Of a stretch of 46,285 nucleotides of DNA, positions 11,769 to 32,429 are shown one piece after another. Positions within the stretch are counted from its first letter, which is position 1. Every line of letters starts with the position of its first letter. The notes under the pieces are model-generated. The model worked only from the letters and a program-made list of their open reading frames with translations. It did no database searches and was not told the origin of the DNA. The stretch lies in IMG/VR virus record IMGVR_UViG_3300027499_000009, positions 1 through 46,285 of that record; one strand, 5' to 3'. Made by a program: the position numbers and the translations under genes. Source of the DNA: a virus.

Positions 11769-12644
11769 ATGTCTGTCGCAAACAGCGTCAAGCAGAAGAT
11801 GATCTCGGAGTACATCAACACTCCGCAGGGTCGTGCCAAGTTGGCCGCGTCCATGACGCAGCCGCTTCGTCTGCGCCGTGACTACATGGCGGTCGGTCGC
11901 AAGACCTTCCTCGTGGAGCAACTGCCGGACGGCGCGCTGCCGATTTACGACAAGGATCCCGACGTGACCGCGTTCGTGGTCGGTGAGGAAGGCGAGAACA
12001 TCGTCGCAATCACCAAGCCGCGCCGCGTCATTTTCCCGCTCTTTGAGATTGCGTCCAACCCCGAGATCCCGCTCACGCAAATCAAGGAGCGTCGTTTCGA
12101 CCTCATTGAGCGCGCACAGGACTTGGCTCGGGCGCAAATCCAAGCAGCCGAGGACGAGCGGGTGTTCTCCGTTCTCGACGCCATCGCCACCAACGGGTTC
12201 GACTCGGTTTCGAGGCAGTTCAACCCCGACATTCCGGTTGTCGCCCCCATCAGCGGCGCGGTGCTCGCGGACGCCTACGCGGAGATTGAGCGCAACGACC
12301 TCCGGGTTGCTCGCGTGTTCATGAACGCTCGGGACTACGCGGACCTCCGCAAGTTCGGTCGTGACATTCTCGACATCGAGAGCCAGCGCGAACTTCTCAA
12401 GACGGGCCTCATGGGCACGCTTTGGGGCGCGCAAATCATCGTGTCGCGTCTCGTCCCGGTCGGCACCGTGTACGTCTGCTGCGAGCCCGAGATGTTCGGT
12501 CGGATGCCCGTCCGTACCGAGTTGACCGTGCTCTCTGCCGACGACCCGAAGGCCCGCACCATCGGCTTCTCGGTGTTTGAGAATATCGGTATCGGGGCCT
12601 ACAACCCCAAGGGCCTCACGCGCTTGACCATCACGCGCGCGTAA
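11769..12644 (+). CDS. Major capsid protein, HK97 fold
   Basis: This 291-residue protein resembles short HK97-fold capsid proteins. Features include the N-terminal helix with REYINTPQG-type sequence, RPRRVIFPLFEIASNPEI, the helix LIERAQDLARAQIQAAEDERVF, the late segment LWGAQIIVSRLVPVGTVYVC, and the typical end FSVFENIGIGAYNPKGLTRLTITRA. The N-terminus is short, which fits a separate scaffold. The terminator at 12667-12705 follows directly. Its last seven residues, RLTITRA, recur at the end of the downstream LAGLIDADG gene. Confidence 0.88.
   Translation: MSVANSVKQKMISEYINTPQGRAKLAASMTQPLRLRRDYMAVGRKTFLVEQLPDGALPIYDKDPDVTAFVVGEEGENIVAITKPRRVIFPLFEIASNPEIPLTQIKERRFDLIERAQDLARAQIQAAEDERVFSVLDAIATNGFDSVSRQFNPDIPVVAPISGAVLADAYAEIERNDLRVARVFMNARDYADLRKFGRDILDIESQRELLKTGLMGTLWGAQIIVSRLVPVGTVYVCCEPEMFGRMPVRTELTVLSADDPKARTIGFSVFENIGIGAYNPKGLTRLTITRA
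12621..12644 (+). repeat. 3' end of capsid gene, mimicked at 13697-13720
   Basis: These 24 bases code for RLTITRA and the stop. They match 13697-13720 at 19 of 24 positions, and every difference is synonymous (four third positions plus TAA versus TGA). Confidence 0.8.
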
Positions 12645-12666
12645 GCCTCCTACCGGGGTTTTCAGC

Positions 12667-12705
12667 AAGGCCGCACACCGCAAGGTGTGCGGCCTTCGCA
12701 CTTTT
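12667..12705 (+). terminator. Terminator after the major capsid gene
   Basis: A perfect 13-bp stem (AAGGCCGCACACC with GGTGTGCGGCCTT) has a GCAA tetraloop and is followed by CGCACTTTT. Confidence 0.88.
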
Positions 12706-12757
12706 AGGGTGGACACCGTGGAGCATTTACGGTACGTTTTCGGAAACGTAGGTGCCC

Positions 12758-13720
12758 ATGCGAGCCGTACCGTGTCCCGTGTCCCCCGAAACCCTGCGCG
12801 ACCTCTACGCCGTGCAGAAGCAGACCGACCAAGAGATAGTCGAGCACCTGTGCGCGCAAGGCCACGATGCGACCTTGAAGCGGGTGCGCGCATGGCGACA
12901 ACGGTTCGGCATTGACACCGTGCCACGGTGGGCACGGCACGAAGTCACCCCTATCGAGGGCACGCTACGGTCGTTGCTCGTAGGCTCCATGCTCGGTGAC
13001 GGGAGGCTCGTCCACCGCACCAAGGCTACGCACTACGAGGAGTCGCACGCAGGGAACCAACTCGACTACTTGAAGTGGAAGGCCGAGGTGTGGGGGTCGG
13101 CATGGGTACGGGACTTACGCGAGGTGCCCGACACACGGGGGTTTCGCACCTACCGCATGTGGACGCACGCCCATGCTTCGCTGAACGAGTGGCAATCCCT
13201 GTTCTACGCGAGCCGGGAGAAAGGGTGGAAGCGGTTCTTGCCCGAGGTGGCAGACCTCGTTGACCCCTTTGCTCTCGCGGTGTGGTTCCTTGACGACGGG
13301 CACGCGGGGTGGTGGCCCGAGTTCGCGTTCGGGGCTGACGAGCCTTCTCGGCAGGTTGCACTCGCAGCCCTCGACAGGTTCGGGCTGCACCCCCGGTGGC
13401 TCCCCCGCAAGGGAAACACGGGGGTGTTCATCCTTGAAGGTGAGGCCCAAGCAGAGCACTTCCTCGCGCTTGTCCGTCCCTTCGTGCCCGCGTGCATGAC
13501 CTACAAACTCGACTTTGGGTTCCTTGGGCGGGGCTATCAGATGCGACAGGTCATGGACGAAGCCGTGCTGCGTCGGTTGGCGGGAGCGGGTGTGCCTTTG
13601 CGAGACATGGCCCGCCGACTTGGAGTGGGGGCGTCCACGGTGTCCCGGTGGCTCCGTGCTCTCGGCGTCGAGCATCCCCGCAAGGTAGGACGGCCCCGCC
13701 TGACGATCACCCGCGCTTGA
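12758..13720 (+). CDS. LAGLIDADG homing endonuclease with helix-turn-helix ends
   Basis: This protein of about 320 residues has two LAGLIDADG helices: LLVGSMLGDG near residue 75 and ALAVWFLDDG near residue 175, each with an Asp at the catalytic place. The segment between them (HYEESHAGNQLDYLKWK) is typical of the LAGLIDADG_2 type. Helix-turn-helix-like segments lie at the N-terminus (residues 10-50) and the C-terminus (MARRLGVGASTVSRWLRALGV). The start is ATG 12758, with GTG 12752 as an alternative; no strong RBS is visible. It is free-standing between two terminators, right after the capsid gene, and ends in RLTITRA exactly as the capsid protein does. Its likely role is to cut a capsid-gene allele lacking it. 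Confidence 0.85.
   Translation: MRAVPCPVSPETLRDLYAVQKQTDQEIVEHLCAQGHDATLKRVRAWRQRFGIDTVPRWARHEVTPIEGTLRSLLVGSMLGDGRLVHRTKATHYEESHAGNQLDYLKWKAEVWGSAWVRDLREVPDTRGFRTYRMWTHAHASLNEWQSLFYASREKGWKRFLPEVADLVDPFALAVWFLDDGHAGWWPEFAFGADEPSRQVALAALDRFGLHPRWLPRKGNTGVFILEGEAQAEHFLALVRPFVPACMTYKLDFGFLGRGYQMRQVMDEAVLRRLAGAGVPLRDMARRLGVGASTVSRWLRALGVEHPRKVGRPRLTITRA
13697..13720 (+). repeat. Capsid-like 3' end fused to the homing endonuclease
   Basis: It codes for RLTITRA plus stop, in frame with the endonuclease, and is the diverged partner of 12621-12644. The upstream flank (HPRKVGRP) no longer matches the capsid gene. Confidence 0.8.
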
Positions 13721-13748
13721 TAGCGTAGGGTGGCCGCAAGGGTCACTT

Positions 13749-13791
13749 GAACCCCCGCCGAGGGCAACCCCGGCGGGGGTTCTCGCTTTTT
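13749..13791 (+). terminator. Terminator after the LAGLIDADG gene
   Basis: A stem of about 12 bp, AACCCCCGCCG with CGGCGGGGGTT, has a loop of about ten bases. TCTCGC and a run of five T follow. Confidence 0.85.
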
Positions 13792-13807
13792 GGGCTTGGC
13801 TCGGAGG

Positions 13808-13869: not shown

Positions 13870-15171
13870 ATGAAGCGCACCCGCACAGCGGCAGACGAAG
13901 TTCGCCTTGTCGCCTACTTCGGCAAGACCCCTGACCTCACGCCCTCTGCCAAGTCTCGCTATGAGTGGGAACTTGCCGGGGACGACGCGCTCACCCCCGC
14001 TGCCGAGGCGGCGCTTGTGGACAACCTGCGGAAGCGTATCTTTGGGCCAAAGACCGTAGGGCTCGTGGTTCGCATCCCCTTGTTCGGCAAGTCGCCCGTC
14101 TCGTTCTCGGGCGTGAGCCTGCAAGACCTCCCGAAGAAGTTGCAGGGTGAGGTTGCGAGCGTCGTGGTCCCCTCGGGGGGCTCACACACCATTAGTCACC
14201 CCAACCCCACGAACATGCCCGAGGCACCGCAAGGCACCATGCTCCGCGAGTTCTCCACACCCGCTCCTGACCCTGACGGCCTCACTTCCCGCACCACGAA
14301 GTTGGCGGCGAGCCTTCCGCACGGCTCTCCCTTGCGGCGGTTCCTTGTGGCGACCGTGAAGGAGGCGTGTCCCGGTCACCTTGGGAACCCCATGCAAGCC
14401 CCTCCCGGCTTGTCCGTGGCGAGCGCACCCGGCATGTCCTGTGGTTCTTGCACCTTCTTCTGCCCGACCCGCAACGTCTGCAAGGCGTTCGGGGACTACC
14501 CCGTGTCTGCCGACATGGTGTGCTCCGCATGGGAGGGTGAGGGCGAACTCTCCGAGTTCGGGTCGCTCGTGGCTTCGGTAAGGGTGGCGAAGGGCACCCC
14601 GCGCTCCATGTTGGAGCAGAACCCGACCGCGCAGGTCGAGGTGATGCCCGACGCGGGCATCACCGTCATTCGCTACAACGGGGCCAAGACGGGCAAGCCC
14701 GCCGCCGCCGTCTACTCGGGCCGTAGTGACAAGCCCTTGTGGGACTACTTCTTTGGAAGCACGTTGGCGCGGGAGCAGTACATTGACGACCAAGTGGAAA
14801 AGAGCAAGGCTGCTATGTCCGCTCGGCAAGAGCGGGCGCAGGCCAAGCGGGACTTCCAACACGGCTTGAAGGACGGCGACATTCTCTACTCGTCGTGGGG
14901 CTACGACCAAACGAACATCAACTTCTACGAAGTGGTGGGCGTCGTCGGCAAGCAAGTCTTTATCCGCGAGGTCGAGTCCAAGGTCGTTCGCTCCGAGCGC
15001 GGGTCCGACTATGTGGTGGCCGTACCCGGTCGCTACACGGGCGCAATCTTGAAGAAGGTTCCGCAGAGGGGCTACCGGGGCGAGCCGTATGTGAAGGTGA
15101 ACGACTCGCAGAATGCTTACCCGTGGGACGGCAAGCCCAAGTACGAGACGGCGGGTGGCTTCGGCCACTAA
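13870..15171 (+). CDS. Conserved phage protein with a Cys cluster and a SWGYDQTN domain
   Basis: This is a 433-residue protein. The N-terminus carries the basic motif RTRTAADEVRLVAYFG, like the linkers in the polyvalent protein. Residues about 190-220 hold a five-Cys cluster (CGSCTFFCPTRNVC, later VC) that may bind zinc or an iron-sulphur centre. The C-terminal 120 residues contain DILYSSWGYDQTNINFYEVV, a domain I recall as shared by phage and plasmid proteins of unknown role. Residues 295-330 are coiled coil. A virion or injected role is possible. It follows the candidate late promoter. Confidence 0.65.
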   Translation: MKRTRTAADEVRLVAYFGKTPDLTPSAKSRYEWELAGDDALTPAAEAALVDNLRKRIFGPKTVGLVVRIPLFGKSPVSFSGVSLQDLPKKLQGEVASVVVPSGGSHTISHPNPTNMPEAPQGTMLREFSTPAPDPDGLTSRTTKLAASLPHGSPLRRFLVATVKEACPGHLGNPMQAPPGLSVASAPGMSCGSCTFFCPTRNVCKAFGDYPVSADMVCSAWEGEGELSEFGSLVASVRVAKGTPRSMLEQNPTAQVEVMPDAGITVIRYNGAKTGKPAAAVYSGRSDKPLWDYFFGSTLAREQYIDDQVEKSKAAMSARQERAQAKRDFQHGLKDGDILYSSWGYDQTNINFYEVVGVVGKQVFIREVESKVVRSERGSDYVVAVPGRYTGAILKKVPQRGYRGEPYVKVNDSQNAYPWDGKPKYETAGGFGH

Positions 15172-28364: not shown

Positions 28365-28877
28365 ATGGCTATCGTCTACCAACAGGGGCAAACCCTCGGG
28401 CGTGGGGACTTGGACATTTACCTCACGAACGCAGAGGGCAACCCTGCGAACGCCTACACTATCTCCTACGGCATTTACTACGTTGATCCCACCTCCTGCG
28501 CCGAAGTTCTCATTGGGCCGTCCGACCGCACGCCCGTGAACCCTGCGGTGGGCGAGTACTACGCGGCTCTGCAAGTACCGGGGACGGCTGCGCCGGGGAC
28601 GTACCGTATCCGGTGGCTCGTGCAGGAAACCTCTGCCACGCCGCAGACCGGGGCGGTGCAGGAGTTCGGCGTCGTGTCCTCGCAAGTGGCGACCACCGCG
28701 AACACCATGACAACTTGCATGGCCGACCTCGTGCGGAAGATGCGCGTGCTCACGCGGGACAACTGCTTGGGCGAAGAAACCGAGGTGTTGCTTTCCGTGG
28801 CAGGGGAGCCTGTGGTGGTGTCCTTGGGGGACTTGTACGAAGCCCTTCATGACCTGTCCCCACCCCCGCCTCGGTGA
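28365..28877 (+). CDS. Split structural gene, 5' half: N-extein plus 37-residue N-intein
   Basis: This is a 170-residue protein. Residues 1-133 are the N-extein: an Ig-like beta domain (DLDIYLTNAEGNP, GEYYAALQVPGTAAPGTYRIRW), then a helical linker ending VRKMRVLTRDN. Residues 134-170 form an N-intein: block A CLGEETEVLL with catalytic Cys134, then VVVSLGDLYEAL, and a Pro-rich end followed by TGA. The remainder of the intein and the C-extein are encoded at 29845. In trans, Cys134 would make the thioester and the halves would ligate at N133-S135 of the other part. A 37-residue N-intein fits the atypically split (near block A) class. The stop is followed, in the same frame, by the endonuclease gene. 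Confidence 0.88.
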   Translation: MAIVYQQGQTLGRGDLDIYLTNAEGNPANAYTISYGIYYVDPTSCAEVLIGPSDRTPVNPAVGEYYAALQVPGTAAPGTYRIRWLVQETSATPQTGAVQEFGVVSSQVATTANTMTTCMADLVRKMRVLTRDNCLGEETEVLLSVAGEPVVVSLGDLYEALHDLSPPPPR

Positions 28878-28892
28878 AGTGGTAGTTTCGTT

Positions 28893-29858
28893 ATGGGGCA
28901 GGGTAAGGTGAAACGCGGGACGCCCCTCCTCATGCCTCCCACACCCCAAGACCCACACCCTCTACTCACACCCCTCTTGACAGAGTATGGGGTGTCTTAT
29001 GCCGACTTTCGCAAGGTAGGGCGCGTGCCCCGAGGTCTTGTGGAAGTGCGCTCGGCTATTGTGACGCGGCTACATGAGTCGGGGATGGCGTGGGCCGCTA
29101 TGGTGGAGGTCACAGGGTTGTCCAACGGCTCCATTCAACGGCTCACCCGTGCCAAAGGGTGCCCCGCAGCCAAGAAGAACCGTGCGGAAAACGCCGCCCG
29201 CGTAGGACATGCGTGCAAGGGTAAAGCCAAGCCCGCCTTGTCGGCGTCCCTCAAATCGCGGTGGGCACGGGGAGACTTCAACCACCTTCGGGGAAGGGTT
29301 CGCACCCCCGAGGAACGCTCCCGACTGCAATCCACTTGGACACCCGAGCGCAGGCAACACCACTCCGAGATACGCAGGTTGTTGTGGGCCACCCCGGCAT
29401 ACCGGAACGGCTTGGTGTCTTTCCACCGCTCACCCGAGCAGCGTGTGTTGCGTTCCCATGCACAGTCGGCGCGCATGTTGAGTGACCCCGAGAAATGGAC
29501 TTGGGGCCGGGGGGCAAGCATTACGGGTGCAAAGCACCAAGGCCCTTCGACTTTTTGGGTGCGGAGCAGCCACGAGGTAGCCGCCGTGCGGGTGTTGGAA
29601 GCAGACCCCGAAGTGGTTGCCTACTTGTATGAGCCGAGGTTTACGCTCGCGGACGGAACTTTCGCCATGCCTGACTTCAAGGTGTTCCTACGGGACGGCA
29701 CCGCCAAGTTGGTGGAGGTCAAGGCCGCATGGGTGTTGTCGCTCCCTACAAGCCACAGGAAGGCTATACGCCTCGCCGTGTATCGTGAACTCGCCCAAGC
29801 GGAAGGGCTTCCGTTTGAGGTGTGGACGGAGAAGGACGCACTACATGGCTATCTCTGA
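28893..29858 (+). CDS. Free-standing PD-(D/E)xK homing endonuclease inside the split intein locus
   Basis: This is a 321-residue protein. Residues 60-90 contain a helix-turn-helix-like segment (WAAMVEVTGLSNGSIQRLTRAKG spread over two helices). Residues 100-200 are basic and probably touch DNA. The nuclease core lies at 221-310: FWVRSSHE with Glu228, then MPD with Asp261, then VEVK with Glu275 and Lys277. This is a PD-(D/E)xK/Vsr-like active site. It lies in the same frame as the preceding N-intein gene, with only a TGA and five codons between, and its end overlaps the start of the C-intein gene by 14 bases. It probably cuts intein-free alleles and spreads the locus. No strong RBS is seen. Confidence 0.82.
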   Translation: MGQGKVKRGTPLLMPPTPQDPHPLLTPLLTEYGVSYADFRKVGRVPRGLVEVRSAIVTRLHESGMAWAAMVEVTGLSNGSIQRLTRAKGCPAAKKNRAENAARVGHACKGKAKPALSASLKSRWARGDFNHLRGRVRTPEERSRLQSTWTPERRQHHSEIRRLLWATPAYRNGLVSFHRSPEQRVLRSHAQSARMLSDPEKWTWGRGASITGAKHQGPSTFWVRSSHEVAAVRVLEADPEVVAYLYEPRFTLADGTFAMPDFKVFLRDGTAKLVEVKAAWVLSLPTSHRKAIRLAVYRELAQAEGLPFEVWTEKDALHGYL

Positions 29859-30744
29859 AAGTCTCCGTGAACGACTGCGGGACGCCTTCATGCAGGGCAC
29901 CCTGCTTGCCCACTCCGTTGGGCCTACGGGCGAAACGGCATGGCAACCCGTGCAAGGGGTTCACCGTGCCGAAGTTTCGTGGGAGAGCGTGGTCGAAGTC
30001 ACGACCCCCCACGGGAGCATGGTGTTGACCGGGGGACACCGCGTCTACACGGCCCCTACGGAAAAGGTCGAAGCAGAAGGCTTGCAAGTGGGGCAGCGGG
30101 TGCTCTCTATCGGTGCCGGGGGTGTTGCTACTCTTGTTCCTGTCGTGGGCCTCGCGGTGCTGCCGCCCCGTCAGTTCATGTACGACTTGACCGTGGCCGA
30201 ATGGCACAACTTCCTTGTCTACCGTCCCGCCGTGGTTGTGAGTAACTCGCCCGACCGCAACTACCGCTTCCGGCCTCCCGAGAGCGAGGCGACCATCGGG
30301 TGCTACAACCAAGTGTTCGGCTATGTGTGGACGGACGAGGAGTTCGCGGACTACCTCACCATCGCCCTCGACAAGTGGAACCTTCACCCGCCCGAGACGG
30401 AAGAACTTCGGACGGTGGACATGGTGTGTCAGCAGAAGCCCGCGTGGCGTGCTGCGCTCTTGTGGGGGGCGTTGGTGAACGCTGCCCAAGCCCTCGCCTA
30501 CAACTGGACGGTGAACGAGTTCTCGTACTCCATTGGGGGTATCTCTCTCGACATTCAGCGCACTTCTTCCTACATGGACTTGAAGCGCAACGCCGAGGAG
30601 CAATGGGACAAAATGACCGAAGCCAAGTCGAGAACCGTAAAATATGTCCGTGGCTTGCAACAGCCCCGCTTCGGAAGGGGCGTTAGAAGCGCATTCGGCC
30701 CTTATGTCGGAAAGGGGGTTCTCTCCCCCCGAAACTTCGTGTAG
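29845..30744 (+). CDS. Split structural gene, 3' half: 134-residue C-intein plus C-extein
   Basis: This is a 299-residue protein from ATG 29845. Residues 1-134 are the C-intein: a helical start, block B SMVLTGGHRVYT with His65, GLQVGQRVLSI, block F FMYDLTVAEWHNFLV with His121, and block G VVVSN ending in Asn134. Ser135 is the +1 residue. The penultimate residue is Ser instead of the usual His. Residues 135-299 are the C-extein, starting PDRNYRFRPP and continuing with VFGYVWTDEEFADYLTIAL, a sequence I recall as one contiguous domain with RDNxPDRNYRF in other large phages. Splicing would give a 298-residue structural protein. Confidence 0.88.
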   Translation: MAISESLRERLRDAFMQGTLLAHSVGPTGETAWQPVQGVHRAEVSWESVVEVTTPHGSMVLTGGHRVYTAPTEKVEAEGLQVGQRVLSIGAGGVATLVPVVGLAVLPPRQFMYDLTVAEWHNFLVYRPAVVVSNSPDRNYRFRPPESEATIGCYNQVFGYVWTDEEFADYLTIALDKWNLHPPETEELRTVDMVCQQKPAWRAALLWGALVNAAQALAYNWTVNEFSYSIGGISLDIQRTSSYMDLKRNAEEQWDKMTEAKSRTVKYVRGLQQPRFGRGVRSAFGPYVGKGVLSPRNFV

Positions 30745-30806: not shown

Positions 30807-32309
30807 ATGCCCGTAGTCTGTCCTCATTGCTCTCACACCTTTGGTGGGAGCAAGGTTTCACCCCGGCACATAGCGAACTGCCCGAGTTGGCCCCGCACTC
30901 TCACGGAGCCGTGCCTGTGCGGCTTTCGGGGGGAGAGCGACAACAAACTGAAAGCCCACAAGCGGGCTTGCCCCTCATGGCAGGGACGGGACAAGAAGGC
31001 CGTTCGTGCTGAACGCTTGCGGGAGAACTCCCTCGCCAAGCACGGCGTCGAGAACCCCATGCGCTCGCCCGAGGCTGACCGAAAGCGCGCTGAAACCAAC
31101 CTTGCCCGCTACGGGGCCGAGAACCCGTTCGCCCGTGGGGCGAGCACCTACGAGAAGGTGCAGGCTTCGTTAGAGGGCAAGCGACCCGTGCTTCGGGGAG
31201 AGCAGAACCCCTTCGCCCGCCCCGAGGTGCAAGAGAAAATCCGCGACACCATGCGGGAACGCTACGGGGCCGAGAACCCGCAGCAAGTTCCCGACATTCG
31301 TGCGCGTACCACCGCGACCTCCCAAGAACGCTACGGGGGAGTTCTTCTCTCGTCTCCCGTGCTTGCAGAGAAAGCCCGTGAGACGAACCTCGCCCGCTAC
31401 GGTGAAGCGTTCCCGCAGCGCACCGAGGAGGTAAAGGCCAAGCAGCAAGAGACGAACCTTGCTCGCTACGGTGTGCCTTGGACGAGCATGAACCCCGAGG
31501 TGCGGGCGAAGCAGTTGGAGGCCCACCACGCGAAGTGGGGGTCGCACTACTTCGCCTCCGACGAGGGCAAGGCGCACCTTCGGGCGGCTCTCGTGGAGCG
31601 TTTCGGGGTCGAGTTCCCCGGTGCTATCGAGGGTCATTGGGAGAAGGCCGTGCAGACCTTCAAGGAGCGGTACGGGGTCGAACACCCGCTGCAACTCGCA
31701 GAGTTCCTCGACAAGCGCACCGACACGACCTTGGCGAAGTACGGGGTCGAGAATGTCATGCAAGATGCGGAGGTCATGGCGCGGTCGCAGGAAACCAACA
31801 GGGAACGCTATGGCTCACCTTTCTTTGTCTGCTCCGACGCCTTCAAGGCATGGAGCCAAAGCCTGTATGGGACAGACCACCCCATGCAGAACCCCGAGTA
31901 TGCCCGTCAGCACTTGGAGAAGATGTCTCCCTCACGAGGTGGGCCGAACGGGCTTGAACGCAAGGTCATGTCACTTGCTCCCGAAGGGTCGCTCCTGTTC
32001 ACGGGGGACTTCTCTTTTTGGCGGTGGCTCCCGGCTCTCGCTCGGCACAAGAACCCCGACTTCATTGCTCCCGGCCCCGACGCGACGAACCCGAAGAAGG
32101 GTGTCACCCGCGTGGTCGAGGCGTTCGGGGACTTTTGGCACTCGCGCATGTTCACCGGGAAAGTCCCGTGGGAGCATGAGCAGGAACTCATTGCCGCCTA
32201 CGCGGAGGTGGGCATCGAGTGCTTGGTTCTGTGGGAGTCCGAAGTCCTCTCCGCGCCCGACGAGGTGCGCGCACGGCTCGCGGATTTTCTTGCGCCATGC
32301 CCCCCGTGA
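30807..32309 (+). CDS. Vsr-like homing endonuclease with zinc fingers and RYG repeats
   Basis: This 500-residue protein has AGGAGG before the ATG. The N-terminal 50 residues hold two zinc-finger-like units (CPHCSHTF with HIANC, then CLCGF with HKRAC). Residues 70-385 contain about a dozen 20-30-residue repeats built on RYGxENP..xPE, of the kind found in phage homing-type nucleases (DUF7487-like). The C-terminal domain has KNPDFI, then VVEAFGDFWHSR and CLVLWESEVL, which is the Vsr/EDxHD nuclease layout. It lies just downstream of the split-intein locus with a T-rich, promoter-like gap (30745-30806). It probably targets a nearby conserved gene or tRNA region. Confidence 0.75.
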   Translation: MPVVCPHCSHTFGGSKVSPRHIANCPSWPRTLTEPCLCGFRGESDNKLKAHKRACPSWQGRDKKAVRAERLRENSLAKHGVENPMRSPEADRKRAETNLARYGAENPFARGASTYEKVQASLEGKRPVLRGEQNPFARPEVQEKIRDTMRERYGAENPQQVPDIRARTTATSQERYGGVLLSSPVLAEKARETNLARYGEAFPQRTEEVKAKQQETNLARYGVPWTSMNPEVRAKQLEAHHAKWGSHYFASDEGKAHLRAALVERFGVEFPGAIEGHWEKAVQTFKERYGVEHPLQLAEFLDKRTDTTLAKYGVENVMQDAEVMARSQETNRERYGSPFFVCSDAFKAWSQSLYGTDHPMQNPEYARQHLEKMSPSRGGPNGLERKVMSLAPEGSLLFTGDFSFWRWLPALARHKNPDFIAPGPDATNPKKGVTRVVEAFGDFWHSRMFTGKVPWEHEQELIAAYAEVGIECLVLWESEVLSAPDEVRARLADFLAPCPP

Positions 32310-32352: not shown

Positions 32353-32429
32353 TCCCGAGTAGCGCAGTTGGTTAGCGCAACGGACTGTTAATCCGTGGGC
32401 CGCTGGTTCGAGTCCAGCCTCGGGAGCCA
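32353..32429 (+). tRNA. tRNA-Asn (GTT)
   Basis: Acceptor stem TCCCGAG/CTCGGGA, D-loop AGTTGGTTAGCGC, anticodon loop CTGTTAA giving anticodon GTT, T-loop GTTCGAG, discriminator G and an encoded CCA. It is 77 bases long and complete. Confidence 0.95.

Follow-up and report, generated by a model that had tools for sequence, protein, structure and literature searches.

The window analysed here (the whole 46,285-nt stretch of the IMG/VR virus record IMGVR_UViG_3300027499_000009) carries a gene for a LAGLIDADG homing endonuclease in the spacer behind a major capsid gene. The features of the locus are as follows.

11769-12644, + strand: major capsid gene, HK97-like (PHROG 2522 major head protein, E 2.7e-52).
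12621-12644, + strand: proximal capsid end, RLTITRA and stop codon, the native one (22/24 bases shared with L004 and L003; ~90% with the terminator included).
12665-12699, + strand: proximal hairpin terminator (fold -30.6 kcal/mol, z -7.1), homologous in L003, L004 and L008.
12739-13802, + strand: insert relative to L004 (blastn of the window against L004), comprising the nuclease gene, a capsid-end scrap and a second terminator.
12752-13720, + strand: LAGLIDADG homing endonuclease with a C-terminal helix-turn-helix (HTH) and a capsid-derived tail (PF03161, E 1.7e-15; HTH families).
13697-13790, + strand: scrap of another capsid allele (RLTITRA codons, stop codon and terminator), in frame with the nuclease.
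13749-13782, + strand: distal hairpin terminator (fold -33.6 kcal/mol, z -4.3), homologous to the capsid terminator of L005.
13870-15171, + strand: next gene, colinear with L003, L004 and L005, where it directly follows the capsid spacer; no Pfam match.

The capsid protein belongs to a family of huge-phage head proteins; tblastn relatives include Bacillus phage G and Mycobacterium phages, and 485 relatives were found in viral contigs, of which the best 80 were retained. The family has a conserved C-terminus, GL-x-R-L-T/V-I/V-T-R (159 loci, 46 distinct ends). The nuclease gene starts with GTG, an ATG following at 12758, and its product scores 57.8 bits against PF03161 (LAGLIDADG_2; cutoff 25), with the motifs LxGSMLGDGR and WxLDDG invariant in nine homologues. 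Like I-SceI, which is intron-encoded and, to our knowledge, has neither an HTH nor a capsid tail, it has a LAGLIDADG core with two motifs and their acidic residues. Its profile matches I-SceI (PDB 1r7m, 3ool and 5a0m) with E values of 4e-7 to 2e-7. The gene is free-standing: the capsid ORF is uninterrupted and the nuclease gene sits in the spacer, outside any intron or intein. An Rfam scan of the window at gathering score returned two tRNAs only and no intron. A group I intron completed by the tail was considered and ruled out, given this Rfam result and an ORF that reads straight into the tail.

The capsid ORF (...GLTRLTITRA) and the nuclease ORF, which reads ...KVGRPRLTITRA before its stop codon, share the C-terminus RLTITRA. 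Their 24 terminal bases (12621-12644 and 13697-13720) are identical at 19 positions, and all five differences are silent (capsid/nuclease TTG/CTG, ACC/ACG, ACG/ACC, GCG/GCT and, at the stop, TAA/TGA). The first-pass annotation of this DNA had reported the match and judged chance agreement very unlikely, and both statements hold in the window. On either strand, the next-best 24-mer matches the capsid end at 16 positions; none of 100 first-order Markov sequences of window length contained a 24-mer with five or fewer mismatches to it; and among 49,141 pairs drawn from the 314 open frames of at least 80 aa in the window, this is the single pair of C-termini sharing more than four residues. It had also placed a separate terminator behind each end, and the fold energies bear this out with a strong hairpin after both. 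A simple terminator scan flags only the distal hairpin, the proximal one being missed because its T run is weak.

At 13701-13790, the tail together with the terminator behind it matches the stretch of L005 that spans its capsid end and terminator (E 1e-15; 79% over 90 nt), and on this alignment the tail is capsid-gene DNA, its terminator included. The coding part of the tail is nearer to ends of the L009/L022 type than to that of L005: 25 of its 27 nt are identical to the capsid ends of L009 and L010, and its 18-mer for RLTITR is identical to those of L022, L034 and L038. Homologous nucleases end in ...GRP followed by a few unrelated residues, which rules out the tail as an old part of the nuclease. 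RLTITR-like tails were sought on these homologues and were found at none of 81 other loci, five of which (L083, L154, L155, L158 and L159) are clipped by contig ends so that their tails are unseen; likewise, no viral contig matched the GRPRLTITR codon pattern. The nuclease-tail junction is present in one record only, L083 stopping short of it.

The search behind these 81 loci (E<1e-20) did not require a capsid gene, and this capsid gene lies upstream on the same strand in 79 of them (loci not deduplicated). The two exceptions are L083, a clipped piece whose capsid gene is L006 on the same contig, and L161, a second copy on the contig of L162; L165, a weak genome match (22%), falls outside the 81 because of the E value used. 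Across the 68 distinct loci with a nuclease start found within 2.5 kb, the distance from capsid stop to nuclease start has a median of 150 nt and is at most 250 nt in 50. The distribution is patchy, with a nuclease homologue within 2 kb at 69 of the 150 distinct capsid loci that have at least 1.5 kb downstream, and on a capsid tree with 149 leaves, 68 of which have the nuclease, there are at least 41 switches between presence and absence. Such repeated gain and loss, together with empty sites in close relatives, characterizes a free-standing homing endonuclease gene. Across huge phages, the LAGLIDADG family keeps to the end of a single essential gene, and public data hold many empty and filled alleles. 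Some loci carry more than one copy, with two tandem LAGLIDADG homologues behind one capsid gene in L066 (3968-5862) and three in L069 (4129-6661). In L084, L096, L097, L108, L160 and L164, the nuclease frame continues into a longer ORF, several of these sharing a tail resembling ...PLSNLNRR...EPILVW; a fusion of the nuclease to the next gene is possible in these six.

Twelve pairs of loci with and without the nuclease were compared, and in near-identical pairs the junction lies ~60-160 nt past the capsid stop. In the clean pairs (L295/L294, L144/L214, L145/L214, L148/L224 and L107/L284), the extra DNA lies ~70-160 nt past the stop codon and contains no capsid-end copy. L295 and L294, near-identical phages whose flanks agree at 99.9-100%, are set apart by a nuclease insert of exactly 1,350 bp, located 160 nt downstream of the capsid stop; they would suit a homing comparison. 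The remaining pairs show either rearrangement on the right or left-hand homology that stops near the stop codon (L059/L047 and L111/L274), so the position of insertion varies.

A further comparison, between the window and contig 3300014050_001406, bears on transfer of the nuclease itself. The nuclease genes differ at 13 of 882 bases (294 codons), 5 of these differences being silent, and the capsid genes at 49 of 876 (292 codons), 39 of them silent; for silent codons, nuclease against capsid, P is 2e-8. The last 249 nt of the capsid gene hold 3 of the 49 differences, the smallest share in 66 pairs (binomial P 1e-4), a signal weaker than its P value because the contig, which has an anomalous stretch of ~80 nt at the terminator, may be a chimera. 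The pattern looks like homing of the nuclease with co-conversion of the capsid 3' end, seen against a possibly chimeric contig. The capsid gene of L007 is identical to that of this contig and shows an equal 3' gradient; L007 ends just past the gene.

As for which of the two capsid ends is native, the proximal end and terminator are common to the window, L003 and L004 (~90% or more) and, more distantly, L008, and the nuclease is absent from all three relatives. Relative to the capsid stop, blastn homology between the window and L004 runs from -2900 to +94 and again from +1159. The insert hence starts 94 nt past the stop codon, beyond the terminator, and homology returns before the next gene. 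No switch of affinity relative to L004 occurs along the capsid gene of the window, which remains close to L004 all the way through. In L005, the sequence from the last codon onward is of the other terminator type. Since the proximal end and its terminator occur in L004 and L008, which lack the nuclease, this end is taken as native; given capsid-tree distances from the window of 0.06 for L004, 0.13 for L005 and 0.20 for L008, the proximal type is the parsimonious ancestral state. The tail is therefore a piece of another allele within the insert, not a displaced end of the phage's own gene.

This conclusion bears directly on the history proposed in the first-pass annotation, in which the element entered the very 3' end of its own host's capsid gene and supplied a recoded end and a terminator, the displaced end surviving as the nuclease tail. 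That the tail copies a capsid end through its terminator stands; the replacement itself we consider unlikely for the window. Both ends and both terminators are indeed present, and every difference between the ends is silent, as in the Glomus case in the accessible text of PMC3630166. The same layout recurs in L127, where a copy located beyond the nuclease begins 27 nt ahead of the stop codon's final base and extends through the terminator; this distal copy is L067-like (91% over 128 nt) and the proximal copy L073-like. L127 is an independent second case of the arrangement, and replacement fits it better than the window. Against replacement in the window stand the nuclease-free relatives, whose capsid 3' ends and terminators the annotation had proposed to compare: proximal end, terminator and spacer are all present in L004 and L008, where the nuclease is missing, so that the distal end is not the displaced native one. 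The capsid gene without a switch of affinity and the insert beginning at +94 in the spacer, rather than within the gene, argue in the same direction. Replacement may describe events in an earlier host.

The recoding that formed part of that proposal fares no better. Over the 18 nt encoding RLTITR, the two ends of the window differ at 3 positions, as is typical of pairs within the family (mode 4, 595 pairs); the tail 18-mer occurs unchanged in other capsid genes, and of the 24 terminal bases of the capsid gene, all but 2 are shared with L004, which lacks the nuclease. Special recoding is unsupported, the differences being ordinary divergence between alleles, and self-resistance through recoding is no more than a possibility. 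A true vestige of the nuclease in L004 and L008, both of which may have lost the gene, would favour replacement. The leader motif GTGGAGCATT was tried as such a vestige; it appeared promising at two mismatches and proved too weak under a tighter rule, being present at 7 of 52 loci that bear the nuclease (within 300 nt) and at 3 of 81 that lack it. A candidate remnant of the nuclease start in L005 (tblastn E 2e-4 on 372 nt; hhalign E 3.5e-5 for one pair) is suggestive only.

Second copies of a capsid end or terminator were detected downstream, on the + strand, at 10 of 164 distinct loci, and at none of the 164 on the - strand (E<1e-5). In L119, the scrap consists of 16 nt of capsid codons and a terminator. 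In L128 and L126, terminator scraps that start at +42 and +80 from the capsid stop abut the nuclease stop codon. The scraps with capsid codons (window, L127 and L119) all start at about -23 to -31, a span of ~8 nt suggestive of a cut site; a fixed site near -25 rests on these three cases, because the scraps of L126 and L128 start outside the capsid codons. Scrap boundaries would in this way predict the cut position of the enzyme. Second terminators with no nuclease between the copies also occur (L067/L166, L073/L171, L172 and L215), and the region therefore gains cargo in other ways as well. Beside terminator scraps, L119 (4496-4545) and L067 (4640-4690) contain loose copies of a nuclease 3' end (GASTVGRW codons), the rest of the gene being missing; these are possibly scars of older insertions.

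We regard it as probable that a free-standing, spacer-dwelling homing endonuclease gained an L005-type capsid-end scrap by imprecise repair in an earlier host. The nuclease would cleave genomes that lack the element, within the capsid 3' end or close to it. On the left side, a genome with the nuclease would serve as template for repair of the break, with recombination running through the capsid gene; on the right side, an illegitimate joint would once have formed between the end of the nuclease gene and the broken capsid end after slight resection, the host at that time being an earlier one whose capsid end was of the L005 type. The composite of nuclease, scrap and terminator would then have homed in the ordinary way into the spacer of the present lineage. 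End joining of this kind, occurring in some events, would place a variably resected capsid end either directly behind the stop codon of the nuclease gene or in frame with the nuclease as a fusion. The scrap would supply the nuclease with a stop codon and a terminator, and no further role for it is needed.

The same joint could have been made by random illegitimate recombination of the kind that underlies phage mosaicism, with the nuclease not causal and the joint kept for the stop codon and terminator that it supplies. The varied joints with terminator copies in this region, some of them with no nuclease in between (L067, L073, L172 and L215), are in line with such a process, but the nuclease end forms the joint in three separate cases (window, L126 and L128), and all scraps derive from the capsid gene, just behind which this nuclease family resides, which makes this explanation rather improbable. 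An assembly chimera or a convergent tail, for which the occurrence of the junction in a single record might speak, is hardly credible given that the nuclease stays in frame through the tail, that ends differing at 5 of 24 bases offer no shared k-mer for misjoining, that the right flank remains colinear with L004, and that convergence of the peptide fails to explain a homologous terminator.

Imprecise repair around a homing endonuclease also allows a broader and more tentative proposal, about which we have more doubt than confidence. Should this LAGLIDADG family cut ~25 nt upstream of the capsid stop codon, huge phages could have a dedicated, nuclease-driven exchange site at the 3' end of the capsid gene, where sloppy repair would repeatedly swap capsid ends and terminators, attach them to the nuclease gene and let cargo genes accumulate between terminator scraps. 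Were this true, the site would be a phage counterpart of the gene-end-swapping mobile ORFs of mitochondria.

Those mitochondrial elements, fungal mobile ORFs (mORFs) with duplicated gene ends, are the closest precedent in the sources as accessible to us: the Glomus mORFs with atp6, atp9, cox2 and nad3 hybrids (PMC3630166) and the Allomyces atp6 hybrid (Paquin et al. 1994, as cited in PMC3630166). As in the accessible part of that account, the window has a LAGLIDADG ORF adjoining the 3' end of an essential gene, with a copy of that gene's C-terminus on either side of the ORF; the two copies have diverged through silent differences, and the second lies beyond the nuclease, as it does independently in L127. 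The likeness ends with the direction of exchange. A proximal end that is foreign and a distal end that is native were not found in the window, given L004, L008 and a capsid gene with no hybrid signal; unlike the mORFs as described in that text, the window involves a phage capsid gene whose adjoining copy is native, the distal copy being a foreign scrap of eight codons and a terminator in frame with the nuclease, in an insert that lies past the first terminator. The sequence evidence nonetheless suggests that, like the fungal mobile ORFs, homing endonucleases that stand free in phage genomes can pick up pieces of the gene next to them.

Among phages, T-even genomes contain free-standing homing endonucleases that spread by intronless homing, namely, the seg and mob genes, with segD beside capsid gene 23 (PMC2988022). 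According to the portion of that source available, they resemble the present family in standing free between phage genes, in their patchy occurrence among relatives and in co-conversion of flanks (PMC2988022). The T-even examples covered there are mainly of the GIY-YIG and HNH types, whereas this family combines a LAGLIDADG core with a C-terminal HTH; it is also tied to one gene end, and a scrap of the target gene is not mentioned for T-even phages in that portion (PMC2988022). Phage nuclease genes are also described as clustering beside capsid and terminase genes and marking exchange boundaries (PMC10448857); the neighbourhood counts in the accessible text concern the T5orf172 and IPA-HNH families, and capsid-end duplication is absent from it. 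Our searches of the open-licence literature found no phage case of a nuclease bearing a duplicate of a capsid end.

Elsewhere in the window, the stretch 28365-30741 contains an ORF whose last part resembles the N-terminal half of an intein (CLGEETEVLL...), then an endonuclease-like ORF (28893-29858) and a Hint-like C-terminal half (PT-HINT E 0.003, below the cutoff). With its halves read by eye, it looks like a split-intein 'fractured gene', an arrangement that we take to be akin to published fractured genes. It is followed by an ORF with repeated ENP-type units (30807-32309; DUF7487, E 1.2e-43), directly after which lie tRNA genes at 32353 and 32439.
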